Shown here in pieces: positions 30,209 through 54,441 of a stretch of 64,000 nt of DNA (positions are counted from its first letter, which is position 1; the number at the start of each line of letters is the position of its first letter). The position numbers and the translations under genes were made by a program. Under the pieces are notes generated by a model. The model was not told the DNA's origin, did no database searches, and saw only the letters and a list, made by a program, of their open reading frames with translations. This DNA is from Phyllobacterium endophyticum (GTDB taxonomy: Bacteria; Pseudomonadota; Alphaproteobacteria; Rhizobiales; Rhizobiaceae), in the NCBI RefSeq assembly GCF_003010935.1, contig NZ_PGGN01000003.1, positions 186,001 through 250,000 of the forward strand. The letters run 5' to 3'.

Positions 30209-31136
30209 CGTTCTGTCCCTCCGTTCCTCCAGCCCAACTTTACCATACTTCTCCTGGGCTTCCGACCGTCAGGGGTTAATTACTAAGGGGGGTAAAACGC
30301 GGACAGAGTGGCGAAGCTCGGATCGAATTAGATCCTAAGTCGCGTGTTGGTCGGGCCTTGCGAGGGAATGAATCTGCAAATCTGCAATTCGCGAATTGCT
30401 GCAGGCCTGTTGGCGGACCATTGTAAGCGCTGCCATGGCCGAACGATACACGAACTGTGTGATACTTTCTCGACTTTCCTTCGCGGTGAACGGAGGCTTC
30501 ACAATGACAACTATTGGCAAGTAGCAGGCACTACGCAAGGGCTGCTTCGTGGGCGCGAAGCGGTCAGTCGCTCCACAATCGCCAAACGCCAGTTTCGGGG
30601 CCAAGATCGGACCGTTCCCTGCCAGGCCTGGAGCGGCAGGTGAACCAGAACGGCGGCTCGTCCTCCAAAAAGTGAGGCCCGCCGCCTGTGGTAACTTCTA
30701 CAGGTGCGGAGAGCTTGGCGACGAGCCTCCATCGGAAAGGTGGCTTCCGACGCGCACGGAACTGCGACGTCGGCCTAATGTTCCGGCACTCGAACCCATA
30801 ATCCACATCTAGGAATCGGCAAAGGGCCGTCGATTGGATGCAAGCTGGACGGCCTTTTGAAGCCCGGCAGAGCGACCGGTGGATTTAGCACCGGGTACGG
30901 CCGCACTCTGGCAAGATCGCATAGAACACCACATAGGTCCGGTGGCGCTTCCGTCTCCATGGCCCGGGAAGCCAGAACCTCAAGCGTTAGATTGGCGAGA
31001 TCAAGCAGACGGGTCCGGGTTCTTCGGTCAGCGAGATCTGAACATGCAGGTACTCGTCAGACTGTAGCGCATTGAGAGAGATCGGCGTGCCGCCAGCCTT
31101 GAATAGAAACTGAATATATAATGTTCGTTTTCAAAT
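30209..31136. other. Decayed stretch containing a copy of the stress-promoter leader
   Basis: No intact gene is supported. The segment 30650-30790 is related at the base level to 33340-33470 (shared CGGCTCGTCCTCC, AGTGAGGC, CCGCCTGT and AACTTCTACA), which is the leader of a small membrane protein there; here the ATGAGAATG start has been lost. A plus-strand frame at 30879-31067 (PWPGKPEPQALDWRDQADG) may be the end of a lost gene, since a terminator follows at 31137. Confidence 0.5.
30760..30784 (-). promoter_or_regulatory. EcfG/RpoE2-type promoter (degenerate cassette)
   Basis: On the minus strand GGAAC, 16 bases, then AGTT. This fits the alphaproteobacterial general-stress promoter (RpoE2 of Sinorhizobium: GGAAC-N18/19-TT). 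The downstream open frame has lost its start codon, so the promoter may be orphaned. Confidence 0.55.
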
Positions 31137-31166
31137 GAGGCCCACTGTCCTTTGGTGGGGCTTTTT
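31137..31166 (+). terminator. Rho-independent terminator
   Basis: A hairpin with arms GGCCCAC and GTGGGGC (one mismatch) around TGTCCTTTG, followed by TTTTTGC. It would end a plus-strand transcript from the decayed region upstream, before the small gene at 31231. Confidence 0.6.
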
Positions 31167-31230
31167 GCATTTAAGACGGAACTGATTGCTGGCCCAATTG
31201 TTCAGTAGAGGACAATTCAAGGAAATTGAG

Positions 31231-31389
31231 ATGACAGAGAAGCCAGGCCATGTGGTGAGGCTGGAACCATTCAGGCCGGAATACCGTCTTGCGCTTCGTT
31301 TTCGTTTCCGCTTGTGGTGGGACTGCAAGTTCTTGCCGCTGCTGGATCGGCTGGACCGCGCCGAAGTGAGACGTCAAGTCCGTCGTTAA
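31231..31389 (+). CDS. Small aromatic/arginine-rich protein (52 aa), copy 1
   Basis: Starts at ATG 31231 with AAGGAAA upstream. The product is 52 residues: MTEKPGHVVRLEPFRPEYR, then LALRFRFRLWWDCKFLPLL and a basic end. The middle alternates arginine with large hydrophobics and could lie on a membrane surface. A paralogue stands at 41772-41936 with the same start, the WWD-x-KFLPLL core and the same neighbours (DUF3606 and LigD on the opposite strand). Two-copy conservation supports translation. Function unknown. Confidence 0.65.
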   Translation: MTEKPGHVVRLEPFRPEYRLALRFRFRLWWDCKFLPLLDRLDRAEVRRQVRR

Positions 31390-31434
31390 GGCTTGCTTGT
31401 GCCAGCGGAGGGTTTCTGCCTCAACAACCATTCG

Positions 31435-31508
31435 TAAAAAGAGCCGAGCTACCCGCTCGGCTCAATTATTGGGGCATGCGTCCAATAATCAGGGCAGATA
31501 CTGGACAT
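31435..31508 (-). ncRNA. Candidate stress-induced small RNA, copy 1
   Basis: Defined by an EcfG-type promoter at 31515-31539 and a strong terminator ending at 31436 on the minus strand, with about 73 bases between. No start codon with a ribosome binding site lies inside. It holds a hairpin ATTATTGG/CCAATAAT (8 pairs) and the terminator hairpin GAGCCGAG/CTCGGCTC followed by TTTTT. Copy 2 at 41934-42000 keeps promoter, length, the GTATCTGC and TTGGACG segments and the terminator, while the first stem has changed to GATTT/AAATC. It is convergent with and antisense to the 3' flank of the small gene at 31231. Confidence 0.6.
31436..31463 (-). terminator. Rho-independent terminator of the sRNA candidate
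   Basis: Perfect 8-bp arms, 31441-31448 and 31456-31463, with a 7-base loop; on the minus strand five T follow directly. It may also stop read-through from the DUF3606 gene. Confidence 0.8.
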
Positions 31509-31514
31509 GTGTCT

Positions 31515-31539
31515 AACCTTTATTTTCGCCGATCGTTCC
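31515..31539 (-). promoter_or_regulatory. EcfG/RpoE2-type promoter of the sRNA candidate
   Basis: Minus strand: GGAAC, 16 bases, GGTT. It begins 6 bases after the DUF3606 stop codon. The same site with the same spacing is kept in the duplicated block at 42007-42031, including the inner CGGCGAAAATA. Confidence 0.65.
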
Positions 31540-31544
31540 ATTTT

Positions 31545-31736
31545 TTATGAGCGCTTTTTTCGCTTCGAGACCTCTTGCTCGATCTTTTCCCGATTGCCGT
31601 TGTATTTGAGAATAAGCTGCTCGGCATCGTCCCGGCCAAGCTTCAGCGCTTGCATCAGGTAATTGACCTCGTATTTCTCTTCTGCGGCAACCGTGCTGCG
31701 GTCGCGTGCACCTCGTTTGTTTTTGTCGTCAGCCAT
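31545..31736 (-). CDS. DUF3606 family protein, copy 1
   Basis: A 63-residue basic protein: MADDKNKRGARDRSTVAAEE followed by YEVNYLMQALKLGRDDAEQL and a lysine-rich end. This is the DUF3606 pattern, common in rhizobia: a positively charged arm and one helix-turn-helix-like helical pair. It could bind nucleic acid, but no function is established. Its start overlaps the 3' end of the LigD remnant by 8 bases, so it was probably translated together with the ligase. The copy at 42036-42224 has the same relation to a second LigD remnant. Confidence 0.82.
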   Translation of the reverse strand: MADDKNKRGARDRSTVAAEEKYEVNYLMQALKLGRDDAEQLILKYNGNREKIEQEVSKRKKRS

Positions 31737-32734
31737 CGCCTTCCTCCTTGGCGGTCAGTTCAAACACCTCCGCATGGTCCGCGACTTCCCGCAGTCCCTT
31801 GAAGGACGTGTGTCGGAGCTTGCCGTCATGCGTCCACGCTCCGAACGTAACTTCCGCTATGAGTCTTGGTTCCGTGAAGACGAGTGTTTTGCCTTTGACC
31901 GCAGCGGCGGGTTTATCGGTACGAATGCCGTCCAGCTGCCTTTTAAGGTCCCTGGCGAGTTTTGCTGAGAAACCGGTTCCGACTGAACCGACATAGACCA
32001 GGTCATCACCCTTACGGGCGGCAAGCAACAGGCTGGCAATCGAGCCGCGCACCTTGACCGAAGGCTCATAACCGATGCCGGCAAAGCTCTCGCTCGTGTT
32101 GCATTTGATCTTGAGCCAGTCGCCATGCATGCTTGAGCAGAGCTTCGCCATCTCCCTCGATCTCTTCCGACAGCCGGATCGCACCATCTGCACCCTCCAA
32201 AAGACCGTTGAGCAGGTGCCGGCGGGTTGATAGCTCGGTACCGGTCAGATCGTGACCGTCGAAATACAGAAGGTCGAAGGCGTAGAGGATTGCATTTCGC
32301 GCAGCGCGCGTCGCACGCCGGCCGCCGAGGTCCTGTTGCAGCAGGCCGAAGTTCGGCAAGCCTCTCTCGTCAAGCACAACCGCCTCTCCATCTAGGATCA
32401 TGGTTGCAGGTCCAAGTTCCTTTGCAGCCGCTACAATGCTCGGGAAATATGACGTCCAGTCGTGGCCGCCCCGGGTGATGATCCGTATGCGCCTCGGTTC
32501 AATGTGTACGGCAAGCCTATAGCCGTCCCATTTCACCTCGTAGAGCCACTGATCGCCACTTGGCGGCTTCTTGACCAGCAGGGCGAGGGCTGGTTCAACA
32601 CGCGCTGGCATGGGATCGAATGCAAGCTGAGGTTGCCGCTCATCACGCAGTTTAGCCGGTTTGCTCTTGAGTGCGGCATCCGGATCGGAGAGAAGGCCGA
32701 TTGTTTTTGGCTTTCGAGATGAGCTTCTTGCCAT
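31729..32734 (-). pseudogene. LigD-type ATP-dependent DNA ligase, internally deleted and frameshifted
   Basis: The N-terminal part (32734 to about 32130) contains the adenylation motif I EVKWDGYR with catalytic K68, MILDGEAVVLDE (motif III region) and AFDLLYFDGHDLTG. Near 32125 the frame changes and the stretch between GEALLKHA and GDWLKIKC is missing; that stretch normally holds the EG(I/V)xxK motif IV. The other frame then gives WLKIKC, YVGSVGTGFS and the OB-fold end VTFGAWTHDGKLRHTSFKGL. LigD ligase works with Ku in end joining, and in Sinorhizobium one such pair is under RpoE2 control. With motif IV lost, the enzyme should be dead. No Ku gene is in the window. Confidence 0.82.
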
Positions 32735-32812
32735 GCTTCTATTGAGGCAGACTTGAAGTGCGACGTAAATTACTCATAGTTCTTAGGGTTTCCAGAAGGT
32801 TTCAGGTGTGGT

Positions 32813-32853
32813 GAGGCCCGACGGGGTGGGATTGGGCGGTTACGCCGGGCCTC
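32813..32853. repeat. Palindromic intergenic element (GAGGCCCG...CGGGCCTC)
   Basis: Perfect 8-bp arms around 25 bases. Related GAGGCCCGACG hairpins stand at 33487-33530, 44871-44916 and 51917-51959, always between small genes. They resemble the palindromic intergenic mosaic elements known from rhizobia. No T-run follows, so simple termination is unlikely. Confidence 0.5.
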
Positions 32854-33012
32854 GTGCCGGAGTTGTCAACGCCCCGGCGGAAAACCAACCCGTCCTTCTG
32901 ACCCACGCTCCGGGATTAGTACTAAGTGGTTAGCTGAGATGCCGCCCTTGGCTCCCGCCAAGCAGCAACTTCTTCCATCTGGTGCGCGTTTAAAGCTTCG
33001 GGAGGAACTGCC

Positions 33013-33219
33013 ATGCGAAATCCAGCCACTGGTGGCAAAATCAGAAGGTCTCTAAACCGAGGTGATCCTGTCAAAGTTTTCCGAGGCGAATGGGTACAGG
33101 CAACAGTTGTCTCGAACTCCGAGGCTGCCATAAGAGTGAAATATTCAGATGACGGTCAGGAGGTCATACCCTGGGTATCAGGTCGCATCTGCGTAGAGGT
33201 GGCCCGCAAGGCTGGATAG
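33013..33219 (+). CDS. Small beta-rich protein, copy 1
   Basis: A 68-residue protein with GGGAGGAACTGCC before its ATG. The sequence GDPVKVFRGEWVQATVVSNS, then RVKYSDDGQEVIPWVSGRIC suggests a small SH3/Tudor-like barrel with charged edges. The paralogue at 54535-54747 shares RRGDPIKV, VVSNxEAA, QEVIPWVSGRIC and the ribosome-binding leader. No function known. Its 3' end overlaps the convergent small membrane protein gene (33156-33332) by 64 bases, so the two mRNAs are antisense to each other. Confidence 0.7.
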   Translation: MRNPATGGKIRRSLNRGDPVKVFRGEWVQATVVSNSEAAIRVKYSDDGQEVIPWVSGRICVEVARKAG

Positions 33220-33332
33220 GCCCAAACCAGCCCAACTGTAAGCGGATCCGCAAAAAACATGACCACGGCGAAGTAAACAACCGCGATCAGGATGAAGACG
33301 AGTATGCAAGCTACCAAGGCAAACATTCTCAT
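33156..33332 (-). CDS. Small membrane protein (MRMFA family), copy 1
   Basis: ATG 33332 with GGAGGA about 10 bases upstream. The first 36 residues are almost one hydrophobic span: MRMFALVACILVFILIAVVY, then FAVVMFFADPLTVG. The paralogue at 51357-51470 keeps MRMFAxVACILVFILIAxVY, FAxVxFFAxPLTVG and stops there at residue 37; here the frame runs on for 22 residues antisense to the gene at 33013. An EcfG-type promoter lies 108 bases upstream (33440-33464). It is probably an inner-membrane peptide of the stress response. Confidence 0.65.
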   Translation of the reverse strand: MRMFALVACILVFILIAVVYFAVVMFFADPLTVGLVWAYPALRATSTQMRPDTQGMTS

Positions 33333-33439
33333 AACGGCTCGTCCTCCGGAAAGTGAGGCCGGCCGCCTGTAACTTCTACATGTGCAGAGAGGTTGGCGAC
33401 GATCCTCGCGTCCAAGGGGGGAGACTCCGACCCACATCG

Positions 33440-33464
33440 AACCATGGCGCCGGATAAATGTTCC
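33440..33464 (-). promoter_or_regulatory. EcfG/RpoE2-type promoter of the small membrane protein gene
   Basis: Minus strand: GGAAC, 16 bases, GGTT. Its transcript would have a leader of roughly 100 bases before ATG 33332. The leader is one of the repeated segments (related copies at 30650 and 42430). Confidence 0.65.
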
Positions 33465-33486
33465 TGCACTAACTGGTGAAAAAGGA

Positions 33487-33530
33487 GAGGCCCGACGCTT
33501 ATCAAAGGGCTCTGTTTAGCGCCGGACCTC
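33487..33530. repeat. Palindromic intergenic element, second copy
   Basis: Arms GAGGCCCGACGC and GCGCCGGACCTC pair over 12 positions with two imperfect pairs. Same family as 32813-32853 and 51917-51959. Confidence 0.5.
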
Positions 33531-33557
33531 GGCCAACGGGGCGTCTCAGCTGCCTGA

Positions 33558-34421: not shown

Positions 34422-34544
34422 GATTTACTCCAAAGTCCGGCGTTTAAGCTCTGCGGGTCCTTACGTCAGGCCGCTCGCAGCAGCCATGAAGTATGGTTCG
34501 CATCCGTTATACGTTGTAAATTCATGTGATTATCGCGCATTAAT

Positions 34545-34595: not shown

Positions 34596-35507
34596 ATGGT
34601 ATTCGATACGCGATTGCTGACGGGTGTCGGTGTTCTGGCTGCTGTCTCCGAGGTGGGGAATTTCGCCAGAGCGGCGGAGATGCTGGGCCTCACTCCTTCA
34701 GGCGTGAGCCGGGCCGTCGCGCGTTTGGAGACGCGGGTGGGCGTTCGGTTGTTCGATCGAAATCCACGGCAGGTGACCCTCACCGACGAAGGCCGACGCT
34801 TCCACGCGCAAGTCATGCCGCTTCTTGCTGGTCTCGACGAGGCAGCGGCGGAAGCCGCAGGCGCGGCTGCAACGGTGCGCGGGCGACTGCGCGTATCGGT
34901 GGATCCTTGGTTCGCGCGAACGGTCCTGGCTTCGAGGCTCCAGCAGTTTCTCGCCTGCTATCCTGAGCTCACGATCGATTTCTTCACCAGCAACTACCGG
35001 GAGGAGATGATGGCTGGCGTCGACGTGGCAGTGCGCTTCGGTCCGCCGGACGCGTCATCACTCATCGCACGCAAACTGTTGGAAACTCCTATTCTGACAG
35101 TTGCAGCGCCAGCCTACCTCAAGCGGTGCGGCCAACCGCAATCACCTCACGATCTGGTTCATCACGAGGCGCTTCTCTTTCGTGACCCGCGGACCGGTCT
35201 GCCGTTTCCGTGGGGATTTCATAACCACGGGGAGTTCACCGAGGTCAAGGTCTCGGGCCGTCTGGTATTGGATGATCCGACCGTCGCGGTGTCTGCTTGC
35301 GTGGCGGGTCAAGGTATTTTCCAGAGTCTCGCTATCGGATTGGCGCCGTACATTGCGCGCGGCGAACTGGTCCAGATCCTGCCAGAATGGTCCGACGAGC
35401 TCTACCCGCTCTACGCCTATCATTCTTCTCGGCATCATCCGCCCGCCAAAGTGCGAGCGTTTCTGGAATTTATTCACGAGTCCGCCGCTGAAACTGCCGG
35501 CGCCTGA
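34596..35507 (+). CDS. LysR-family transcriptional regulator
   Basis: The start at 34596 is chosen because GAGGGGAG lies 6 bases upstream and it gives the standard N-terminus; the upstream GTG at 34557 falls inside the operator. Winged helix at residues 5-63 with NFARAAEMLGLTPSGVSRAV and ETRVGVRLFDRNPRQVTLT. Effector domain at about residues 90-295. The layout is that of the large LysR subgroup regulating divergent oxidoreductases. It probably controls the NmrA-like gene from the dyads at 34545-34572. Just after its stop lies a fragment of a foreign SRAP gene, a duplication breakpoint. Confidence 0.88.
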   Translation: MVFDTRLLTGVGVLAAVSEVGNFARAAEMLGLTPSGVSRAVARLETRVGVRLFDRNPRQVTLTDEGRRFHAQVMPLLAGLDEAAAEAAGAAATVRGRLRVSVDPWFARTVLASRLQQFLACYPELTIDFFTSNYREEMMAGVDVAVRFGPPDASSLIARKLLETPILTVAAPAYLKRCGQPQSPHDLVHHEALLFRDPRTGLPFPWGFHNHGEFTEVKVSGRLVLDDPTVAVSACVAGQGIFQSLAIGLAPYIARGELVQILPEWSDELYPLYAYHSSRHHPPAKVRAFLEFIHESAAETAGA

Positions 35508-35513
35508 GATCAT

Positions 35514-35577
35514 TGACCGGCAGAAACAGCTGCCGCATCGCTTCATGGGTGGTGGTTGCGTTGTAGAGGTTGCACAT
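35514..35577 (-). pseudogene. Fragment of an SRAP (SOS-response peptidase) gene start
   Basis: The 64 bases are nearly identical to 39751-39814, the first 21 codons of the intact SRAP gene (MCNLYNATTTHEAMRQLFLP). Homology stops at the LysR 3' end. An upstream GGAAC site at 35638-35642 is followed by a poor -10. It is a truncated duplicate and cannot be functional. Confidence 0.75.
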
Positions 35578-37420: not shown

Positions 37421-37445
37421 GGAACCATCATCGCGTTCCGTGGTT
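37421..37445 (+). promoter_or_regulatory. EcfG/RpoE2-type promoter, target unclear
   Basis: Plus strand: GGAAC, 16 bases, GGTT, starting 23 bases after the DUF982 stop. The transcript would run antisense into the zinc-ribbon gene at 37477-37689. No plus-strand start with a ribosome binding site follows closely. Confidence 0.45.
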
Positions 37446-42006: not shown

Positions 42007-42031
42007 AACCACTATTTTCGCCGATTGTTCC
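42007..42031 (-). promoter_or_regulatory. EcfG/RpoE2-type promoter of sRNA copy 2
   Basis: Minus strand: GGAAC, 16 bases, GGTT. It corresponds in position and inner sequence to 31515-31539. Confidence 0.65.
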
Positions 42032-42425: not shown

Positions 42426-42518
42426 GCGATAATCCCGCGGGGAGTGAGGCCCGCCTCATGGGCCGCAATCCTGACGAAACGAGCCTCTGTCGGGGATTGA
42501 GCGCCCCGACTCGCATCG

Positions 42519-42543
42519 AACCGTAAGGTCGGTCTAATGTTCC
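42519..42543 (-). promoter_or_regulatory. EcfG/RpoE2-type promoter fused before the LigD remnant
   Basis: Minus strand: GGAAC, 16 bases, GGTT. The leader (42430-42520) belongs to the same repeated family as 33340-33440. Here it reads into the LigD remnant and then DUF3606 copy 2, which could thus still be stress-expressed. Confidence 0.6.
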
Positions 42544-42776: not shown

Positions 42777-43145
42777 TCAAGATTGACGGAGTCGCTTTAT
42801 CCGGTCGGCAAGTTTCTGCGGGTGATAAGGATGGTCCAACGGGCCTTCTTCACATAGGTCATCCACTGCGGCTGAAGTTCGCTCGGCGGAGCGCGTAACG
42901 ATGACCTTGATGCCTGGTCTAATCTCTTTCGCATGGGCCGATAGTTGAAAGCCGCTAGCATCTCGCAACTCGACGTCTGTTACGAGTACATGGACTTCAT
43001 GGCTGCTGAGGACTTCGATAGCTTCGGCGGCGTTTGTGGCTTCAATCACGCGGTAGCCACAACCGCGCAAGTACTCTGACACTGTGGCTCGCAGAACAGG
43101 ATGTGTCTCCACTAAGAGAATGGTCTCTAATTCTATCGACGTCAT
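42777..43145 (-). CDS. Single-domain response regulator, atypical phospho-site pocket
   Basis: A 122-residue stand-alone receiver. The phosphoacceptor aspartate in LVTDVELRD is present and the T/S position is T in VIVTRSAE. However, the acidic pair after beta1 is ETH (LLVETHPVL) instead of the usual ED/DD, and the conserved lysine of beta5 is replaced (GPLDHPYHPQKL). It may therefore be phosphorylated poorly or act as a decoy or scaffold. The start overlaps the stop of the upstream receiver gene by 4 bases (ATGA), so the two are co-translated and could compete for one kinase. Confidence 0.85.
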   Translation of the reverse strand: MTSIELETILLVETHPVLRATVSEYLRGCGYRVIEATNAAEAIEVLSSHEVHVLVTDVELRDASGFQLSAHAKEIRPGIKVIVTRSAERTSAAVDDLCEEGPLDHPYHPQKLADRIKRLRQS

Positions 43146-43612
43146 GAATTCTTGCTTTCCACCAGCCTTCTTAAAGTACCGGCAACGTCAAAAACAGGCT
43201 TTGAGAGAAACGCTTGGAAAAAAATCGTTTCATCATCCGCCGGAACGTGTTGGCCGGACATAACGACGACCTTAACTTCGGGACTGGTCTGGGTAACAAT
43301 CCGGGCCAAGTCCAACCCGGTTAAATCCCCAGGCAGGTGGACGTCAGTTAGCACGAGATCAAATGACTCGGTCTTCAGGGCTGTCAAGGCATCGCCCACT
43401 GTCCCAGCCTCGACAACGTCCCACCCAGCAGCCCTCAAGCTGTCAGCAACATCCATCCGGATCAGGACTTCATCCTCTACAAGAAGAACTTTTAAGCGTG
43501 GAGCTCCCGCCGACTCAACATCAATCTTGTCTTGTGGTGACACTCGGATCGCCCCCTGCAGCGCTTTTGCATCCGAAGGACGAGCGCCCCCATATGCCTC
43601 AGTTCTGCTCAA
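43142..43612 (-). CDS. Single-domain response regulator
   Basis: Receiver protein with complete chemistry: VLLVEDEVLIRMD, phosphoacceptor D in LVLTDVHLPG, S in VVVMSGQ and K in FLSKPVFD. No output domain. The longest frame begins at TTG 43612; GTG 43543 with GGGGG upstream is more likely if the nearer of two EcfG-type promoters (43611-43635) is used. Single-domain receivers modulate the kinases of the general stress response in several alphaproteobacteria. It forms a coupled pair with the atypical receiver at 42777. Confidence 0.88.
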   Translation of the reverse strand: MSRTEAYGGARPSDAKALQGAIRVSPQDKIDVESAGAPRLKVLLVEDEVLIRMDVADSLRAAGWDVVEAGTVGDALTALKTESFDLVLTDVHLPGDLTGLDLARIVTQTSPEVKVVVMSGQHVPADDETIFFQAFLSKPVFDVAGTLRRLVESKNS

Positions 43613-43698
43613 CTCTGACGCGGGACAATAGTTCCCGGCCCCTGTCAGAGGTGTGGGCTTCCGACTCGCACCGAACTGCGCCGCCGGTCTAATGTTCC
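43611..43698 (-). promoter_or_regulatory. Tandem EcfG/RpoE2-type promoters of the receiver pair
   Basis: Two sites on the minus strand, 43674-43698 and 43611-43635, each GGAAC, 16 bases, AGTT. The outer one gives a leader of about 50 bases to TTG 43612; the inner one would need the internal GTG at 43543. Confidence 0.6.
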
Positions 43699-43828
43699 GG
43701 CACCCTTGGGAAACATGGCCCGATCTACCGCTAGCCCCTCAGTCACCGATAAACCGGGCCTGACTGACGGGAGGACCTTCAGCGCCATCTAAAATACCCT
43801 CCAACCCGCCGATCAAGGAAATCACAAA

Positions 43829-44291: not shown

Positions 44292-44732
44292 TCAGCTTGA
44301 CGGAGACTTTTTTGCGTCCAACGGCTGCGCTTCAACTGAAGCAGTTGCGCTGGCCGAGTTCAAGAGAGTCGCAACCGCTGTGATAAGTTGTGCGCCTACG
44401 AATGGCTTTTGCAGCATCACACTCTCCGGCACGCCGTTGGCTGACCAATCGTGCGCGCTATCGCCGCTCATGTAGATGATCGGCATAGACGGTACCAATT
44501 CCCTTGCGCGGCGTCCAACGTCCCAGCCGTCGGGTCCAGTACCCAGCCGTATGTCGGTAATCACGGCTTTGAACTCTGTTGCACCCGCCTCGAGTTCCTG
44601 AAGGGCGGTGTTGCCATCATGGGCGGTTACAACGTTGAAACCTTCGTCTGAAAGAGCATCTTCCAGAATTGGAACAAGAAGATTTTCATCTTCAACGAGC
44701 AACAAAACGGGGAAATTCGTGTCTGTGGACAT
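44292..44732 (-). CDS. Single-domain response regulator
   Basis: The start at 44732 has GGAGAG 6 bases upstream and avoids an unlikely 14-residue extension. The receiver is complete: LLLVEDENLLV, phosphoacceptor D in AVITDIRLGTGPDGWDV, S in IYMSGD and K in VMLQKPFVG. The DIRLGxGPDGW and RAREL segments are those of the FixJ/CheY-like rhizobial receivers that pair with HWE kinases. It has a 25-residue disordered tail and no output domain. The HWE kinase remnant at 15.9 kb is the only kinase seen in the window. Confidence 0.88.
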   Translation of the reverse strand: MSTDTNFPVLLLVEDENLLVPILEDALSDEGFNVVTAHDGNTALQELEAGATEFKAVITDIRLGTGPDGWDVGRRARELVPSMPIIYMSGDSAHDWSANGVPESVMLQKPFVGAQLITAVATLLNSASATASVEAQPLDAKKSPSS

Positions 44733-44870
44733 CGCTGCTCTCCGAGCTAGGGGGAAAGCAGGACGGCGGGCCATCGACCTCTCGACGCCAGCAACCCGTT
44801 AAGCTGACGATACCAGATCATATCGCAGTTGATCCTGAGTTACAAATCACGGATTGAGGGCGCGTTAGGT

Positions 44871-44916
44871 GAGGCCCGACGCCGTCCTTGGGCTCGGAAG
44901 CGGGCGCCGGAGCCTC
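44871..44916. repeat. Palindromic intergenic element, third copy
   Basis: GAGGCCCGACGCC pairs imperfectly with GGGCGCCGGAGCCTC. It stands between the receiver gene and structured element b. Same family as 32813, 33487 and 51917. Confidence 0.45.
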
Positions 44917-44984
44917 TGCCAACCCTTGTCAGGCCTATCATCTTCTTTCGCGGGTTGGCAGAATGATGCAGGCGGATGTAGTCT

Positions 44985-47210: not shown

Positions 47211-47447
47211 TCAACGCTTGCGCCTTAACTTGCGCAACTCTCTTTCTACCGACAGCAATATATTTTGGTGCATAGCCAGGTTCGTATTGTCGGCAACCTC
47301 GGTGACAGCCGTTAGAACTTCGCCTCTACTCCACCCTGCTATATAGGCTTCTCTGAGCAGCTCAAGCAAGCGGTCCTCAATTGCCCTTTGGCATTCCGTA
47401 AAGCGGTCTGGATGATTTCTAGGATGATGAGGACGGGGAATAGCCAT
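47211..47447 (-). CDS. Small helical protein, copy 2 (PRPHHPxNHPDRF family)
   Basis: A 78-residue protein: MAIPRPHHPRNHPDRFTECQ, EDRLLELLREAYIAGWSRGE, then NTNLAMHQNILLSVERELRK. Paralogue of the gene after SRAP at 38913. Here the upstream partner is a 33-codon gene whose stop is one base before this ATG; SRAP itself is missing, which suggests the pair was moved without it. Function unknown. Confidence 0.7.
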   Translation of the reverse strand: MAIPRPHHPRNHPDRFTECQRAIEDRLLELLREAYIAGWSRGEVLTAVTEVADNTNLAMHQNILLSVERELRKLRRKR

Positions 47448-47448
47448 T

Positions 47449-47550
47449 CTAGTAATCTTCAACGAGCGCCCGGAGGGGCATGTTGTTATTCACCCATCGG
47501 TGATAGTTGCGATCAACCCTGCCAGCGCGAATATCCTCGATCCGCTTCAT
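47449..47550 (-). CDS. Very small protein (33 aa) in a stress-type operon
   Basis: ATG 47550 to TAG. MKRIEDIRAGRVDRNYHRW, then VNNNMPLRALVEDY. No weight from homology that I can name. Support comes from its one-base coupling to the gene at 47211-47447 and from an EcfG-type promoter 63 bases upstream. It may be the end of a longer ancestral gene. Confidence 0.45.
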   Translation of the reverse strand: MKRIEDIRAGRVDRNYHRWVNNNMPLRALVEDY

Positions 47551-47612: not shown

Positions 47613-47637
47613 AACTGTGCATCTCTATAAATGTTCC
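47613..47637 (-). promoter_or_regulatory. EcfG/RpoE2-type promoter of the 47550-47211 operon
   Basis: Minus strand: GGAAC, 16 bases, AGTT. It lies just downstream of the zinc-ribbon stop codon, and the transcript would start near 47605. Confidence 0.6.
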
Positions 47638-48857: not shown

Positions 48858-49496
48858 TCAACGGGTGAGTGATTGCAGTCTTGTTGCGTCCGGCGCTGTC
48901 GCTCGTCGATTTATGATCGTGCGGCCTTTCGCGTCTTTCATAATATAGCGGCCGTCTGTGATGCGTTCACTCATGCCATTTGTGTGTTGAACTTGCATCT
49001 GACCGCTTATACTCAACCCGGCAGGCGCTGCTGCTTGTCCGATATTGCCAGTTGCAGCGCTGCTCTTATTCCCAGCATTGTCGCCTTTCGCATCGCCTTT
49101 GTGGCTTGAACTGCCGCCTTTATTACCCGCAGCGTTGCCACTGGCTCCGCTGCCACTATTCGCTCCGCTGCCGTTGCTGGCTCCGTTGCCATTGCTGGCA
49201 CCATTGCTGCTATTTCCTCCGTTGCCATTGCTCGCACCGTCGCCCTTGCCGGTGGCGCTACCGCCGTTGCCGTTGTTGCCACCTCCCTTGTTGCCGCCAT
49301 TTCCGTTGTTACCACCATCACCGTTACCGCCGCCATTATTGCCGCCGCCTTTGTCTTTGGCCCAAGCGGCATCAGGCTGAAATCGTAAGAGGTTATCCTT
49401 AAAAGTTATCTTGAAGGGTGCTATTAAGAGCGCGACCGCGAACGTTGCGCAACAAAGCGTGGGAACTAGTTTTCTCAGGGTAGGCATCACTCGCAC
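48858..49496 (-). CDS. Exported glycine/asparagine-rich low-complexity protein
   Basis: A 212-residue secreted or surface protein. Signal sequence at residues 1-27 (PTLCCATFAVALLIAP). Residues 48-145 are low-complexity, made of GGGNNG, GNGG and ASNGNG units (simple triplet repeats in the DNA). The last 50 residues form a small domain, SISGQMQVQHTNGMSERITD then GRYIMKDAKGRTIINRRATA, typical of exported rhizobial proteins with this layout. An EcfG-type promoter is 120 bases upstream (49616-49640). A protective or matrix role is inferred. Long open frames on the opposite strand here are shadows of the repeat. Confidence 0.8.
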   Translation of the reverse strand: MRVMPTLRKLVPTLCCATFAVALLIAPFKITFKDNLLRFQPDAAWAKDKGGGNNGGGNGDGGNNGNGGNKGGGNNGNGGSATGKGDGASNGNGGNSSNGASNGNGASNGSGANSGSGASGNAAGNKGGSSSHKGDAKGDNAGNKSSAATGNIGQAAAPAGLSISGQMQVQHTNGMSERITDGRYIMKDAKGRTIINRRATAPDATRLQSLTR

Positions 49497-49615: not shown

Positions 49616-49640
49616 AACCCATTCAGTTAAAAAACGTTCC
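49616..49640 (-). promoter_or_regulatory. EcfG/RpoE2-type promoter of the glycine-rich protein
   Basis: Minus strand: GGAAC, 16 bases, GGTT. A weaker site (GGAAC, 16 bases, TGTT) is at 49783-49807. The leader to ATG 49496 would be about 110 bases. Confidence 0.6.
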
Positions 49641-50211: not shown

Positions 50212-50291
50212 GCGTCCGTTCGTTCCTACGCCTTTTGGGGGATAGCCAGATGGCCACACATACCACGGCGCGCAATGGGTGTATTCTCTCC

Positions 50292-50410
50292 ATCCACTGA
50301 TCGGATAATTTCCTCCAATCGAAATGACGGTCAGCTTAACTGGGAGGAGAAGGAGGTTGTGGGCGCTCTGTGGACTCATGCGAGCATCTTTCCTCTTCTC
50401 CCTCTTTGAT
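50292..50410 (+). ncRNA. Candidate structured RNA element, copy d
   Basis: Stem CTGATCG (50297) with CGGTCAG (50328), a T-G wobble replacing C-G of copy a, then GGGAGGAGAAGGAGG pairing with a TCCTCTTCTCCC strand near 50395. About 70 percent alike to copy a across the block. It again lies upstream of a tiny membrane gene, here broken. Confidence 0.45.
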
Positions 50411-50481
50411 GTGGCTTTTCCGCGCCCTCTTTGCCAGGCGGTACTGGGGGCGCCCCTAGACCTCCGGACGGGTTTTCGCGC

Positions 50482-50550
50482 ATGGACTACAACTTTGCTG
50501 TCTTTGCGCACTAGGCATGGGCGAGAGATAGATCGCCAAACCTCTAAGGA
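50482..50550 (+). pseudogene. Tiny membrane protein gene, copy 4, split by an inversion
   Basis: The plus strand keeps the first codons (MDYNFAVFA) and then meets a stop. The next 30 bases (to about 50545) are the 3' end of the same gene in reverse: on the minus strand they encode LAIYLSPMP and a stop, compared with LAIYLPPHA in copy 2. The two ends therefore sit head to head with the middle lost. Confidence 0.65.
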
Positions 50551-50591
50551 AAAACACGATAGCAACTGATCTGCGCAAACTAGGAGGCAAT

Positions 50592-51320
50592 ATGACCGAT
50601 CCTATTTCATTGCAGCAAGATTTTTGGAATAGATGGAACTCATCGACGCGGGAGAAACACATCGATGAAATATCATTCCGCCAAGCAGAGGTAGTGCGAA
50701 ATTGGTTGGCGACGACACCTTTCCCCCGGCAAATTCTTGAGGTTGGTTGCGGAGCGGGGTGGTTCTGCCGAGAGCTCTCGACGTTCGGGGAGCTTACGGC
50801 GACCGATTTGTCGGACGAGGTGCTCGTGAGAGCGGCGGAGCGGCTGCCTCAAGTAGAATTTGTCGCCGGTGACTTCATGCAGCTCGACTTCGGCAGGAAG
50901 TTCGACGTGATCGTCACACTCGAAGTTTTGTCGCATGTGGCGAACCAGCAAGCGTTCGTCACCAAACTTGCCAGCCACCTGCGCGAAGGTGGCCAATTGA
51001 TGCTGGCGACGCAAAACAAACCCGTGCTTCAGAAGTACAATCGTGTTCCGCCGCCAAGCCGCGGCCAGCTCCGGCGCTGGGTGGATAAGAAAGAACTGAC
51101 CTTGCTTCTTTCGAAGGACTTCGACGTCGTAGAGCTTTTTTCGGTTACCCCCCGCGCGAATAAAGGGATTTTGCAGTTCTTACACTCCAGGACATTCAAC
51201 CGACCAATTCGCGCCCTCATTGGCAAAAGGCTTGACGCCTTCAAGGAATCGATAGGCCTCGGTTGGACGCTGATGGCGAGGGCACGAAAAAAGGCAGTCA
51301 CAATGGGCAGAGCCTGTTGA
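50592..51320 (+). CDS. Class I SAM-dependent methyltransferase
   Basis: A 242-residue cytoplasmic enzyme; TAGGAGGCAAT gives a near-ideal ribosome binding site. Motif I is ILEVGCGAGWFCRELS (residues 48-63), the acidic end of beta2 is TATDLSDE, motif II region VAGDFMQLDFGRKFDVIVTL, and the post-motif EVLSHVANQQAFVTKLASHL. The N-terminus FWNRWNSSTREK resembles methyltransferases acting on small molecules or sugars. No pathway neighbours. It is one of few enzymes in the small-gene region. A UbiE/UbiG-like fold gives no substrate. Confidence 0.85.
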   Translation: MTDPISLQQDFWNRWNSSTREKHIDEISFRQAEVVRNWLATTPFPRQILEVGCGAGWFCRELSTFGELTATDLSDEVLVRAAERLPQVEFVAGDFMQLDFGRKFDVIVTLEVLSHVANQQAFVTKLASHLREGGQLMLATQNKPVLQKYNRVPPPSRGQLRRWVDKKELTLLLSKDFDVVELFSVTPRANKGILQFLHSRTFNRPIRALIGKRLDAFKESIGLGWTLMARARKKAVTMGRAC

Positions 51321-51356
51321 TTAGTCTCGACTAAACAGAGCGGGTGGACGCTTCCT

Positions 51357-51470
51357 TTACTGCGGCATCCCAACGGTAAGCGGGGTCGCGAAAAACGTCA
51401 CCGCGGCGAAGTAAACGAGCGCGATCAGGATGAAAACGAGTATGCAGGCCACCACTGCAAACATTCTCAT
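51357..51470 (-). CDS. Small membrane protein (MRMFA family, 37 aa), copy 2
   Basis: ATG 51470 with GAGGT upstream; 37 residues, MRMFAVVACILVFILIALVY then FAAVTFFATPLTVGMPQ. Paralogue of the product of 33156-33332. It lies 17 bases after another tiny membrane gene (51488-51610), so the two are probably one operon. Single-span inner-membrane peptide, function unknown. Confidence 0.65.
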   Translation of the reverse strand: MRMFAVVACILVFILIALVYFAAVTFFATPLTVGMPQ

Positions 51471-51487
51471 GACGGCTTGACCTCGCG

Positions 51488-51610
51488 TTACCTCATTCGA
51501 CGACGCGCAACGAAGAATAGGCAAACGATCACGATAGCGCCAATGGCCACAAGGGCATACATATTCAATGTTGAAAGGGTTGAAACCGCATCAGCTGACA
51601 TGGGTGTCAT
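51488..51610 (-). CDS. Tiny single-span membrane protein (40 aa)
   Basis: ATG 51610 (a second ATG follows 9 bases later). MTPMSADAVSTLSTLNMY, span ALVAIGAIVIVCLFFVA, then a basic anchor RRRMR that would hold the C-terminus in the cytoplasm. It precedes the MRMFA-family gene by 17 bases. No homologue recognised. Confidence 0.6.
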   Translation of the reverse strand: MTPMSADAVSTLSTLNMYALVAIGAIVIVCLFFVARRRMR

Positions 51611-51625
51611 GGGCTTTTCAAATCT

Positions 51626-51820
51626 TTACGGTCGATCGATTACAGGTCCACGACGCCAGACGACCTTTGAATAGTCCGCTAATGGACTGAGATAGTCAAT
51701 CAAATACCAATAGTCGAACAGGAACTTGAGCTTACGCATGCACGGCCTGACGTCCCGGTCCGCCTTATGGGGTACGCACGAACTAAGAAGGCGGACCGGG
51801 TTGCCGACAAGTTGGTACAT
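51626..51820 (-). CDS. Small protein of unknown function
   Basis: 64 residues from ATG 51820: MYQLVGNPVRLLSSCVPHK, then MRKLKFLFDYWYLIDYLSPL. Its N-terminal third and upstream flank are duplicated at 42557-42690. Aromatic-rich middle, one cysteine. A TTG at 51856 would add 12 residues. Two-copy conservation of the first 23 residues supports translation, although no function can be given. Confidence 0.5.
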   Translation of the reverse strand: MYQLVGNPVRLLSSCVPHKADRDVRPCMRKLKFLFDYWYLIDYLSPLADYSKVVWRRGPVIDRP

Positions 51821-51861
51821 ATCAGCGAAAGAACGTTGCGCTTGTATGATTAACAAAAGGT

Positions 51862-51905
51862 AAGCCCGACCTACCGGACCGCAATTACTGATAGATCGGG
51901 CTTTT
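51862..51905 (+). terminator. Terminator-like hairpin
   Basis: AGCCCGA and TCGGGCT arms followed by TTTT on the plus strand; the other strand has a weaker CTTTTG. No plus-strand gene ends immediately upstream, so it may close an antisense transcript or be a remnant. Confidence 0.5.
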
Positions 51906-51916
51906 GCTAATAAGGA

Positions 51917-51959
51917 GAGGCCCGACGCTCATCAAAAGGCTTTGCTTCAACGTCCGGCC
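51917..51959. repeat. Palindromic intergenic element, fourth copy
   Basis: GGCCCGACG pairs with CGTCCGGCC (one mismatch). The inner CATCAAAAGGCTTTGCTTCAA is shared with 33500 and, in part, with 47555. Confidence 0.5.
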
Positions 51960-52032
51960 CCAGCCGAAGACTGGTCCTTTCGGCTCCCCTGAACTGCTAG
52001 GATAGTAAACGTTTTGGTCTTCCTCAATGCTG

Positions 52033-52048
52033 TGTCCGCCTCCGGACA
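52033..52048. promoter_or_regulatory. TGTCC/GGACA palindrome 6
   Basis: TGTCCG-CCTC-CGGACA, perfect arms, ending 13 bases before the -35 of the promoter at 52062. Its place fits an activator or repressor site for the NepR-like gene. Confidence 0.6.
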
Positions 52049-52061
52049 TTGCATTACGGGT

Positions 52062-52086
52062 GGAACAATTTTCACGAGTCGTGGTT
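52062..52086 (+). promoter_or_regulatory. EcfG/RpoE2-type promoter of the NepR-like gene
   Basis: Plus strand: GGAAC, 16 bases, GGTT, 29 bases before ATG 52116. nepR genes are often under the sigma factor that they inhibit, which would fit. Confidence 0.65.
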
Positions 52087-52115
52087 TGCTCCCGAAGTTT
52101 TCCTAAAGCCGCCCC

Positions 52116-52286
52116 ATGAATGACGAAGAAGAAAATCCCGCAAGTCACCGGGTTCTGGAACAACGAGCCCGTCGTCGCGAACTCAACGAAGCGCTACGAG
52201 CAATTTTCCCCGCTGTAGCAACGGATGATCGATTCGAAGAGTTGCTGAAGCGATTGGACGATTCAGAACCGACGAAGCAAGACTGA
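52116..52286 (+). CDS. NepR-like anti-sigma factor candidate (56 aa)
   Basis: 56 residues with a disordered acidic start (MNDEEENPASHRVLEQRARR), a helix RELNEALRAIFPAVATD and the NepR-like end DRFEELLKRLDD. NepR proteins have two short helices with the pattern LRxxYxxxxxxxxP(D)RFxxLLxxL and bind the EcfG sigma factor until phosphorylated PhyR displaces them. Here the match covers the second helix well, but the Pro before DRF is absent and Y is F. An EcfG-type promoter lies 29 bases upstream, supporting the assignment. No ecfG or phyR is in the window. A look-alike helical peptide cannot be excluded. Confidence 0.55.
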   Translation: MNDEEENPASHRVLEQRARRRELNEALRAIFPAVATDDRFEELLKRLDDSEPTKQD

Positions 52287-52305
52287 GTTTGAACGACCAT
52301 CAGCT

Positions 52306-52323
52306 CTGTCCGCTACAGGACAG
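52306..52323. promoter_or_regulatory. TGTCC/GGACA palindrome 7
   Basis: CTGTCC-GCTACA-GGACAG, perfect 6-bp arms, followed by CAACC. It ends 33 bases before ATG 52357. Confidence 0.65.
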
Positions 52324-52356
52324 CAACCTTTCTTGTGGTTCCGTATTCGGGATGAA

Positions 52357-52623
52357 ATGGATGATCTCAAGTTTCCTAATGTCCCGATTCTCGGTCCACG
52401 CTCGGGAGAGCATCGGTTGATAAACTCCGTGAATGCGGCTCTCGCGTTCATGCTGGAACATTGGCTTGGCGAAACAGGACCCAAAAGGCAGATTGCTCTC
52501 GATGCCTTGGAAAGTGCAATTGCTGGCAATGTTTCCGCCGAAGACGCAAGAACCGCGTTCCTCTATGCAGCTGACGAAGCGGGTATTTTAGAACCTTTAG
52601 ATAACCGAAGAGCCCCTGCATAG
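52357..52623 (+). CDS. DUF982 family protein
   Basis: An 88-residue intact member. ATG 52357 is preferred over TTG 52333. MDDLKFPNVPILGPRSGEH, then VNAALAFMLEHWLGETGPKR and VSAEDARTAFLYAADEAGIL. It is 70 bases after the NepR-like gene and carries its own TGTCC/GGACA palindrome at the fixed distance, so it may be read both from the upstream EcfG-type promoter and from its own. Confidence 0.85.
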   Translation: MDDLKFPNVPILGPRSGEHRLINSVNAALAFMLEHWLGETGPKRQIALDALESAIAGNVSAEDARTAFLYAADEAGILEPLDNRRAPA

Positions 52624-52885
52624 GTACCAGCAGGCCATGCTGCCCCGCTGGGTGCCGATAGCCGAGACCAGTGTTTCCTGATCAGCCGCAGCAACCGCAA
52701 TCTCCTTTGGATCGCGCATCCCTTGATCTAATAGCTTCATGACCGCCGGGCTAACCGGTGCGTTCTCGTGGGTGTTGGATCGCGCTGAAGGATTGCCGAG
52801 ACCATCATATGAGCCGTCTGCATCATCATCCAGCTTCGGTGGAGTAGGTGAGATTTTCTTTTATGCCGAACATGCTAATTCCCCG
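52624..52885. other. No gene; probable remnant on the minus strand
   Basis: On the minus strand a short open stretch reads SPAVMKLLDQGMRDPKEIAV then AAADQETLVSAIGTQRGSMA, protein-like but without start, end or recognised family. Nothing else is supported in these 260 bases. Confidence 0.35.
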
Positions 52886-53209
52886 TCACTCGTACACGGC
52901 GGGAGCACATACCTCTTTACGCTCAGACTCGATCAATACCGCTCGAAGTTGTTCTGGGCCACCGCTGGCCAGTTCGTGCGCGTGCATAGTATCCTGATCG
53001 ATCCTTGTAAAGTGGCCCTCATCGAGGCGAAACGCCCCATTCATACCACCTTGTGAGAAGAAATCGGCTTCGAGCTCTCCCCAGGTGCCAAGGAACTCGC
53101 CACACGTCGTGCACGTGATAGGTGTGTGATCCGACAGCACTGTTGGGAGTTTAAGGTAAGTCGTCCTGCAATTGGGGCAGTCCAGCTTGTGGTCCAGTTC
53201 CTGAGACAT
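52886..53209 (-). CDS. Small zinc-ribbon protein, copy 3, with longer tail
   Basis: 107 residues from ATG 53209. Ribbon cysteines in DCPNCRTTYLKL and ITCTTCGEFLG, then the family end GELEADFFSQGGMNGAFRLD. Unlike the other two copies it continues for about 35 residues (DQDTMHAHELASGGPEQLRA ... EVCAPAVYE), perhaps by loss of the original stop. It has no promoter motif of the EcfG type upstream. Function unknown. Confidence 0.72.
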   Translation of the reverse strand: MSQELDHKLDCPNCRTTYLKLPTVLSDHTPITCTTCGEFLGTWGELEADFFSQGGMNGAFRLDEGHFTRIDQDTMHAHELASGGPEQLRAVLIESERKEVCAPAVYE

Positions 53210-53322
53210 CTTGATGATCCCATGAAAGAGGCACTGTCTTGCATACGAATATTCTGAAATTTGCGGTTTGCAAGTATGTGTCTTCCAGCAGACACTGCGT
53301 CGCTGGTGCCATCTGAACGCAA

Positions 53323-53712
53323 ATGCCCATGTTTGAACCTTTGGCACCTGTGGGAGTTCAACAAGAGTTGACAGAACCTCCTTTGGCCGTACTGGAGCAG
53401 CATAAGCACATGAGATGGGAAGCGCGTACACTTTTCCAGAATATTGGCTTGGGAACTACGTTTTCCCTTATGGCAACGGTTCAATCATCAATCATTAAAG
53501 TTGAACTGAAAGACGGGGATGACGTTTTTGTGGTGGACTTCGAGAACAAATACATTCCCTACAGAGCGCAACGACCGTCAAAGACACAGATAACTCTGTT
53601 ACGCAAAAATTCCCCGACTCTCCATCTTGTGCCAGTCGCATCGGGACAGCTTGGCTCAAACATCACATCGTCGTTGGTAACTGAAGACTGGATCGTGGAA
53701 AGAACCTCCTGA
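53323..53712 (+). CDS. Hypothetical protein
   Basis: 129 codons from ATG 53323; a second candidate start is ATG 53470 (80 residues, MATVQSSIIKVELKDGDDVF). The C-terminal part looks like a genuine beta-rich domain (FVVDFENKYIPYRAQRPSKT, then LHLVPVASGQLGSNIT). The first 49 residues run antisense to the upstream region of the zinc-ribbon gene and may not be coding. I do not recognise the family. Confidence 0.5.
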   Translation: MPMFEPLAPVGVQQELTEPPLAVLEQHKHMRWEARTLFQNIGLGTTFSLMATVQSSIIKVELKDGDDVFVVDFENKYIPYRAQRPSKTQITLLRKNSPTLHLVPVASGQLGSNITSSLVTEDWIVERTS

Positions 53713-53801
53713 TACTGCATCAGAGCTCAGTTGCCGCACAAATCGCTTGCTTTATCACCAGATAGGCTGCTGTTAGCCGCCAAGCCCCGGAGGCGGCTGC
53801 T

Positions 53802-54029
53802 ATGACAACCACTATATGTCCCATCTCAAATGAGCCTGTTGACCTCATTTCGACTGCCAGTGACTACTCAGAATTCAATTGCCCAAGTTGCGGGCGCTTC
53901 CGTATATCTCCCGCAGCATTGAAGCTGATCGTCAACCACTCCCGCAGGAGGCGGGAATCTTTGCTGGACAAGGCAAGGGCCGACGCACAAGGCGGCGATG
54001 GCATACCCTTTATCAGAAACATCCTCTAA
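53802..54029 (+). CDS. Small single-knuckle zinc protein
   Basis: 75 residues, MTTTICPISNEPVDLISTA then SEFNCPSCGRFRISPAALKL. C6 and the CPSC pair (C31, C34) can bind a metal together with a further ligand. The C-terminal half is basic and helical (IVNHSRRRRESLLDKARADA). It resembles the N-terminal zinc segment of some nucleic-acid-binding accessory proteins, but no family is certain. The 3' ends of this gene and 54026-54394 overlap by 4 bases. Confidence 0.6.
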   Translation: MTTTICPISNEPVDLISTASDYSEFNCPSCGRFRISPAALKLIVNHSRRRRESLLDKARADAQGGDGIPFIRNIL

Positions 54030-54394
54030 AAACGGCGTACATTCGCGTCTTTTAATGCTTGGTGATGTACGATGGACTGGACGAAGTCCCTGCCTACCAT
54101 CATGCGCACATTCTTAGACCGCCAAGTGCATTTCTTCCGCTGTTCTGGTGTAATCCATTCGCCATCGAACGCCTTGAGAAAGCACTCGGCGCTCTCCTTT
54201 TTATGAAAGCGATAGATGATGAAACCCTCGCCATCCACAGACAGACTCCTGTGCGGTCTCCAAGCTCCTAGCTTGTCAGCAAGGAACATCACGTTCTCAA
54301 ACCGCCGGGATACCTCACAAGCAAGCACTGCGACCTGACAAGGATATCCGCGGTTAATCAGGCCTTCAGGCGGCTCGCCTCGACTTCTGCTCAT
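54026..54394 (-). CDS. Hypothetical protein with an RRM-like or DUF-type fold
   Basis: 122 residues. RFENVMFLADKLGAWRPHRS, then GEGFIIYRFHKKESAECFLK, AFDGEWITPEQRKK. The strand-helix-strand order with FxxxxxAxxFLxxFxGE is like small ferredoxin-fold proteins that replace a mobile helix. No motif for catalysis. A GGAAC, 17 bases, GGTT site lies at 54416-54441, only about 20-45 bases upstream, so it may belong to the stress set. Confidence 0.6.
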   Translation of the reverse strand: MSRSRGEPPEGLINRGYPCQVAVLACEVSRRFENVMFLADKLGAWRPHRSLSVDGEGFIIYRFHKKESAECFLKAFDGEWITPEQRKKCTWRSKNVRMMVGRDFVQSIVHHQALKDANVRRF

Positions 54395-54415
54395 GGGGAT
54401 GTTCTCAGCAGTATA

Positions 54416-54441
54416 ACCCTGTATGTTCTTTATTTGTTCCA
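54416..54441 (-). promoter_or_regulatory. EcfG/RpoE2-type promoter
   Basis: Minus strand: GGAAC, 17 bases, GGTT. The transcript would begin about 10 bases before ATG 54394. Confidence 0.5.

Follow-up and report, generated by a model that had tools for sequence, protein, structure and literature searches.

What do the stress-type promoters crowded into a short part of the genome of the soil- and plant-associated bacterium Phyllobacterium endophyticum transcribe, and are they stress promoters at all? The question arose from a stretch of 64,000 nucleotides (contig NZ_PGGN01000003.1, positions 186,001 to 250,000; hereafter the window), in which an original prediction had placed a dense cluster of promoters for the alphaproteobacterial general stress sigma factor (EcfG/RpoE2) between positions 30760 and 54441. 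In other species, PhyR takes NepR off EcfG under stress, and EcfG then transcribes from such promoters. Our preferred reading, drawn from sequence comparisons and held with moderate confidence, is that the region may be an accessory general stress response island, with EcfG-type promoters before stress genes and before two amplified families, one with a presumed role as small RNA (sRNA) and the other with a presumed role in feedback.

Density and spacing of the promoter motif

Matches to the motif GGAAC-N16/17-RGTT number 16 in the window; shuffled sequence has a mean of 1.53 (standard deviation 1.32), and none of 100 shuffles reached 16, which bears out the expectation that a random sequence would hold very few matches. 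All 12 predicted sites were recovered, the one given at 54416 being 54415-54440 with a spacing of 17, along with an unlisted minus-strand site at 31849-31873. The 24 kb from 30760 to 54441 hold 13 matches, whereas about 0.8 would be expected from the rate in the whole genome (98 + 89 = 187 matches in 5,508,378 bases on 12 contigs, about 34 per Mb). The density of the region is about 16-fold that of the genome. On the genome scale the bare motif is mostly background, since the reversed pattern used as a control gave 248 matches (124 + 124), above the 187 of the true pattern.

In the region, the GGAAC −35 box is found with the spacing of 16-17 of EcfG-type promoters, and the enrichment is confined to spacing 16: between 28 and 56 kb, RGTT stands at this spacing 12 times, against eight times for the remaining 13 spacings (10 to 23) together. 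As only one RGTT in this interval has spacing 17, site 54415 is at background level, and like 31849 it is probably a chance match. The site at 31849-31873 was ruled out as a promoter; it lies inside the coding sequence of ligD and recurs with ligD-like sequence on contig C5, where a second cluster of eight matches within 364.0-398.7 kb includes this word twice. The sites are partly non-independent, as 31515 and 42007 adjoin a duplicated segment of the ligD end and DUF3606 (D3, 91%), and 30760, 33440, 42519 and 43674 are members of a single repeat family (D5). The cluster of promoter motifs in the 24-kb region is real.

Two multi-copy families linked to the promoters

Three of the window promoters, in addition to two degenerate copies, begin a predicted RNA of about 80 nt, in which two hairpins follow the −10 box, the first of the GUCGGA..UCCGAC type and the second, a long one, of the GAGGCUCGUCGC..GGCGGGCCUC type. 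Two models of this family were used. Model R1 includes the promoter and was built on five copies from the P. endophyticum genome, with its inner pairs one column off; model R2 comprises the hairpins only, without the promoter, its pairs were counted beforehand, and part of its first hairpin is out of alignment (67-75% of cells paired). Because R2 was trained on sequences found by the promoter-containing R1, the 48 matches outside its training set were counted apart. Many matches of the RNA family, like those of the protein family described below, are orthologs or near-identical paralogs, and match counts are not independent events.

R1 matched in 10 of 59 genomes, all Phyllobacterium. R2 gave 15 matches in the P. 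endophyticum genome at E ≤ 0.1 (10 at E ≤ 0.001) and matched in 13 of 20 Phyllobacterium genomes, 12 of which hold promoter-bearing copies. On 54 fetched loci it found 82 matches, with GGAAC 31-36 nt upstream in 57 of them; outside training the box was present in 28 of 48, where about 0.3 would be expected (48 x 6 / 1024). The −10 box was not part of the search, and 51 of the 57 promoter-bearing copies have NGTT with a spacing of 16 or 17 (AGTT 29, GGTT 17, TGTT 4, CGTT 1, none 6; for the 28 outside training, AGTT 18, GGTT 4, TGTT 2, none 4). The hairpins covary strongly, with 146 two-sided changes; shuffles gave 37 and slid versions 17-46. Folding of single sequences was not significant (z +0.8 to −2.1 for the five copies of R1), and the support for the RNA is comparative. 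The loop of the second hairpin contains 41% C, versus 36% over the whole match, with a CCC run in 43 of the 57 copies; both marks of a GsrN-like sRNA, an EcfG-type promoter and a C-rich loop, are thus present. Over the window, the Rfam covariance models gave no match at gathering, and the sole match at E ≤ 1 for seven loci with copies was a plant microRNA family (E 0.54), away from the copies. A DNA-pattern search returned 40 stretches, of which 16 were from Phyllobacterium species; the other 24 yielded 29 weak R2 matches, none with GGAAC at 31-36 nt. Two further R2-matching hairpins stand on the minus strand of the window at 33485-33550 and 44869-44934, without promoter and of the stem type GAGGYCCGGCG..GTCGGGCCTC; they are perhaps plain terminators that share the stem type.

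What lies behind the copies varies: a small hydrophobic open reading frame (ORF), a piece of ligD, in P. trifolii DUF3606-like frames, and in some cases nothing that could be recognised. Among the alternatives, the one that survives best, and which we hold to be possible, is that the RNA would be a 5′ leader or attenuator of stress genes that controls read-through or translation, and not a free small RNA. A Shine-Dalgarno sequence and an ATG 20 nt behind the copies at 33353-33431 and at C5:383580, a ligD frame 76 nt behind two copies and the DUF3606-like frames (recognised by eye) behind copies in P. trifolii G018 all point to such a function. However, ORFs of at least 55 aa start within 260 nt behind 43 of the 57 promoter-bearing copies, yet their related groups never exceed two members; many copies have a T-rich end (mean 3.6 T in 9 nt), and on contig C9, where two copies stand head to tail, a second promoter lies directly behind the first copy. 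A single leader for one gene family is ruled out, the ORFs behind the copies being unlike each other. We favour a small RNA, some copies of which would serve as leaders.

The second family comprises the 56-aa protein encoded behind site 52062 and its relatives. For the NepR-like family against canonical NepR, hhalign gave 91.6% (E 8e-7). Of 177,635 distinct PDB sequences, NepR 2lfw_B scored best (E 0.019), and two further chains of NepR, at E 1.4 and 6.2, are in the list of 16 matches. Homology to canonical NepR was thus found at the profile level, and judged by its sequence the 56-aa protein is distantly homologous to NepR. A sequence search located the family at 30 places in 10 of 19 genomes of the genus, which correspond to 28 genes, loci L211 and L220 having re-picked a neighbouring gene. 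A profile search of 297 genomes from the bacterial family found matches in 11, five from Phyllobacterium and six from five other genera; both searches combined, at least 14 of 20 genus genomes carry a NepR-like gene (the profile was run on part of the rest). Among 41 distinct genes, sequence-deduplicated and including those of the profile search, 34 have GGAAC-N16/17-NGTT within 160 nt upstream (32 at N16, 2 at N17), versus seven for 16 other spacings together, and their −10 boxes are GGTT (15), TGTT (8), AGTT (7) and CGTT (4). At the six loci from other genera, the 160 nt upstream always contain the motif; its −10 box is CGTT in three of them, and two have TGTT at N17. The protein from the window found no match in PLSDB plasmids. 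Its gene does not lie beside ecfG and phyR, the core locus being on contig C4 and the window on C6.

The distance to a promoter-bearing RNA copy was tabulated for 31 of the 36 genus genes (G003, G010, G015, G016 and G019:C85 were left out); six lie within 2.5 kb and nine within 10 kb. DUF982 was found within 1.5 kb of 17 of 44 NepR-like loci versus 10 of 58 comparison loci, namely one of 30 EcfG loci and nine of 28 RNA loci; the RNA, too, hence often has DUF982 nearby. Five sequences, including a fused frame of G019, went into the DUF982 profile, and two pairs among the 44 loci repeat each other. In this frame (G019:C76 near 28299, L222), a NepR-like part and a DUF982-like part share one open frame, a possible fusion by which DUF982 would be tied to the stress switch. 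No paper was found that places DUF982 in a stress context. New here are two multi-copy families associated with EcfG-type promoters, the NepR-like one and that of the RNA, which Rfam does not contain; in the open-licence part of PubMed Central, no paper on either of them in Phyllobacterium was found, as judged by titles.

The sigma factor and the other features of the region

The genome contains one Pfam match to NepR, on contig C4, adjoined by EcfG and PhyR (recognised by eye), and two EcfG2-type paralogs, one on C5 (near 686.3 kb, 46% identical to EcfG) and one on C7 (near 320.8 kb, 44%). The paralog on C5 lies among several GGAAC-N16-NGTT sites at 682-692 kb, a candidate for another stress island. 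Sites at the core locus on C4 are mostly CGTT and TGTT, while those of the window island are RGTT. Published motifs, given here from excerpts of the papers, are GGAAC-N16-CGTT for Rhizobium etli EcfG1 (PMC3892343), GAAC-N16,17-C/GGTT for the EcfG promoters of Methylobacterium extorquens (PMC4814048) and, as quoted, GGAAC-N18-TT for Sinorhizobium meliloti RpoE2 (PMC6011840). The −35 box, the spacing and the GTT of our sites fit the EcfG type, and A as the first −10 base is unusual. The assignment of the sites as putative EcfG-type promoters is supported by their density, their one fixed spacing and their conserved linkage to two multi-copy families. For the general stress sigma factor of the original prediction, these points and the presence of NepR, EcfG and PhyR in the genome speak in favour; RGTT in place of CGTT and the two probable chance sites do not.

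Could the RGTT promoters be read by a non-canonical sigma factor of the EcfG2 type and not by canonical EcfG? We consider this unlikely. The two EcfG2-type genes of P. endophyticum, one within the C5 group of NGTT sites, lend it some weight, as does R. etli EcfG2, which prefers its own promoter and for which, according to the excerpt of PMC3892343, a promoter motif was not found. Across 20 genus genomes, the EcfG2-type gene and promoter-bearing RNA occur together in eight, the gene only in one and neither in seven; however, four (G006, G014, G017 and G019) have promoter-bearing RNA, also with RGTT, without an EcfG2-type gene. These four argue that EcfG2 is not required and weaken an EcfG2-only reading of RGTT, and GGTT is already allowed in the EcfG promoters of M. 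extorquens (PMC4814048, excerpt).

Still less probable is that the RNA copies are dispersed palindromic repeats (RIME- or REP-like) or relics of duplication, with promoter-like parts that merely travel along. Duplicated and degenerate pieces abound in the region, one ligD copy is frameshifted and the copies are clustered, but diverged copies keep the stem through compensating changes and both promoter boxes at one distance, and this promoter also stands, independently of the RNA, before the NepR-like genes. That a G+C-rich region just happens to hold many matches is most improbable: the background level of the motif genome-wide and the two probable chance sites agree with it, but the shuffles and the enrichment of spacing 16 alone contradict it for the cluster as a whole.

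Several results weigh against the island as we read it. GGAAC at 31-36 nt is absent in 25 of the 82 R2 matches, what follows the RNA copies is heterogeneous and in some cases a gene, and a scan of the bacterial family with stricter filters (16 candidates scored per genome) gave RNA matches in 2 of 297 genomes, both Phyllobacterium. On the side of the protein, the Pfam NepR score of the 56-aa protein stays below the curated cut-off (Table 1), and only 8 of 19 family members match this model at E ≤ 1 (best E 0.0052). BLASTP finds nothing between the NepR-like protein and the canonical NepR of the same genome, and NCBIfam gives no NepR match. The AlphaFold2 model is weak (helices 8-30 and 38-50, pLDDT 73.1, pTM 0.31), and a Foldseek search with it finds nothing. 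Finally, the −10 box of R. etli EcfG1 promoters is CGTT and not RGTT, and CGTT occurs nowhere in the window at spacing 16 and was seen in one of the 57 RNA copies and 4 of the 34 NepR-like promoters.

The features of the region are compiled in Table 1. Many of the sites had been described as standing before small genes. Several of them instead begin the predicted structured RNA, 37421 has no recognisable ORF behind it, two sites belong to one duplicated segment and two are probably fortuitous. The description as a stress island of mostly unknown products covers part of the picture: the products include recognisable NepR-like, DUF982, DUF3606, receiver-domain and SRAP proteins and ligD pieces (Pfam).

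Table 1 Motif sites and neighbouring features in the window, with the evidence for each (R1 and R2, models of the two-hairpin RNA)
Feature	Position	Strand	Evidence
GGAAC-N16-AGTT, putative promoter of RNA copy	30760..30784	-	motif; GGAAC 33 nt upstream of R2 match
Two-hairpin RNA copy, no recognisable gene behind	30672..30751	-	R2, 52.6 bits
GGAAC-N16-GGTT directly behind DUF3606 stop codon	31515..31539	-	motif; copy of 42007
Terminator-like hairpin with T run, behind site 31515	31463-31436	-	by eye
DUF3606 protein, 63 aa	31545..31736	-	Pfam E 7.1e-9
ligD piece, two overlapping frames (31729-32193, 32066-32734), frameshifted	31729..32734	-	Pfam ligase domains
GGAAC-N16-RGTT inside ligD, probably fortuitous	31849-31873	-	motif
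Two-hairpin RNA copy, 76 nt before ligD frame	32811..32878	-	R2, 55.4 bits; −35 box GGAGC (32887-32911)
GGAAC-N16-GGTT, putative promoter of RNA copy	33440..33464	-	motif
Two-hairpin RNA copy, then Shine-Dalgarno-like GGAGG and ATG	33353..33431	-	R2, 43.6 bits
58-aa ORF with hydrophobic stretch, behind RNA copy	33156..33332	-	longer frame without Pfam match; C5 counterpart 37 aa
GGAAC-N16-GGTT behind DUF982 gene	37421..37445	+	motif; no recognisable ORF downstream
GGAAC-N16-GGTT, second copy of 31515, then terminator-like hairpin (by eye)	42007..42031	-	motif; D3 duplication
GGAAC-N16-GGTT, putative promoter of RNA copy	42519..42543	-	motif
Two-hairpin RNA copy	42444..42510	-	R2, 54.2 bits; fold z −2.1, lowest of five
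Degenerate RNA copy with intact GGAAC-N16-AGTT (43674-43698)	43604..43703	-	R1, 45.9 bits; no R2 match
Second motif site, inside degenerate RNA copy, before receiver-domain gene	43611-43635	-	motif
Two receiver-domain proteins (42777-43145, 43142-43612)	42777..43612	-	Pfam Response_reg
Third receiver-domain protein	44292-44774		Pfam Response_reg
GGAAC-N16-AGTT before small ORF and 83-aa ORF 47211-47462	47613..47637	-	ORF without Pfam match
GGAAC-N16-GGTT, 119 nt before 212-aa Gly/Asn-rich ORF 48858-49496	49616..49640	-	ORF without Pfam match
GGAAC-N16-GGTT, putative promoter, 29 nt before ATG of NepR-like gene	52062..52086	+	motif
NepR-like miniprotein, 56 aa	52116..52286	+	Pfam NepR 15 bits (cut-off 25.7); hhalign 91.6%
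DUF982 protein, 46 nt behind NepR-like gene	52333..52623	+	Pfam E 8.5e-14
GGAAC-N17-GGTT, probably chance	54415..54440	-	spacing 17 at background

Many duplicated or decayed pieces lie between 28000 and 54700, among them copies of DUF982, the start of SRAP, repeated at 35505-35577, and the ligD-end/DUF3606 segment, present twice. In both copies of that segment, the minus-strand sites 31515-31539 and 42007-42031 stand between the DUF3606 stop codon and a terminator-like hairpin with T run (by eye), and they possibly begin a second short RNA. An open ligD copy of 356 aa is found on contig C5 behind the RNA copy at 382017. RpoE2 was absent from the matches listed in a literature search on LigD and end joining, and for this reason ligD is not claimed as a published EcfG target. 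Elsewhere on the plus strand of the window, 3711-15200 is one open frame of 3,829 aa, and 58907-63682 probably encodes an ABC sugar-type transporter (binding protein and two permeases) and a sulfatase-like protein, recognised by eye from the translations.

Proposed mechanism and comparison with known systems

In the proposed accessory stress island, PhyR would, under stress, release an EcfG-type sigma factor from NepR, and the released factor would read GGAAC-N16-NGTT promoters, here mostly RGTT, that stand before ordinary stress genes and before the RNA and NepR-like families. The RNA of about 80 nt, starting at the promoter with a 5′ hairpin followed by a long terminator-like hairpin with a C-rich loop, would most likely be a small RNA that acts by base-pairing, as GsrN does in Caulobacter. 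The NepR-like miniprotein would be made while the response is on and would most likely act back on the NepR-PhyR-EcfG switch through binding to PhyR or to a sigma factor. By the precedent of M. extorquens, the response itself would raise the NepR-like proteins as its brakes, and it is because of the EcfG-driven NepR homolog of that species that we read the island as a likely part of a distributed EcfG feedback network. Transcription from the sites, its dependence on EcfG, the targets of the RNA and the direction of the feedback are what we infer here. As a tentative extension, several NepR-like miniproteins and up to ten paralogous sRNAs, driven by EcfG in accessory islands and each damping or re-targeting the response, could form a distributed, self-limiting network in which DUF982 is part of the switch.

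If this were true, Phyllobacterium would have turned the single NepR brake into such a network. With dozens of NepR-like and RNA genes under their own promoters, one genus makes feedback design, the specificity between NepR and PhyR and the recognition of the −10 box directly testable. Linked families such as DUF982 are now candidate components of the stress response.

The sites share the GGAAC −35 box, the spacing of 16 and the GTT of the −10 box with the EcfG/RpoE2/SigT-type promoters of Alphaproteobacteria, and differ from them in the first −10 base, which in Phyllobacterium is mostly A or G. The NepR-like proteins resemble NepR and its homologs (META2p0735 of M. extorquens, RsiA1 and RsiA2 of S. 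meliloti) in their small size and NepR-like C-terminal half, and their genes have an EcfG-type promoter upstream, like that of META2p0735. According to the excerpt of PMC4814048, the M. extorquens homolog has an EcfG promoter, binds PhyR and is induced through EcfG and PhyR; its overexpression lowers the response, no binding to EcfG was found there, and negative feedback was proposed. In contrast to these proteins, the Phyllobacterium genes lie far from phyR-ecfG, occur in several copies per genome and score below the Pfam cut-off, and the linker between the two helices is about three residues shorter. The RNA family is likened by description, not by sequence, to two known RNAs. GsrN, an EcfG/SigT-dependent sRNA of Caulobacter whose C-rich loop acts on a G-rich leader (PMC5869019, excerpt), is also short, driven by an EcfG-type promoter and equipped with a C-rich loop; the Phyllobacterium RNA differs in its many paralogous copies per genome and in carrying that loop in the second hairpin, whereas GsrN has it in the 5′ loop. 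ReC64 of R. etli, a non-coding RNA of 88 nt, likewise stands behind an EcfG1 promoter, but at one locus, beside phyR and with the CGTT motif (PMC3892343, excerpt).

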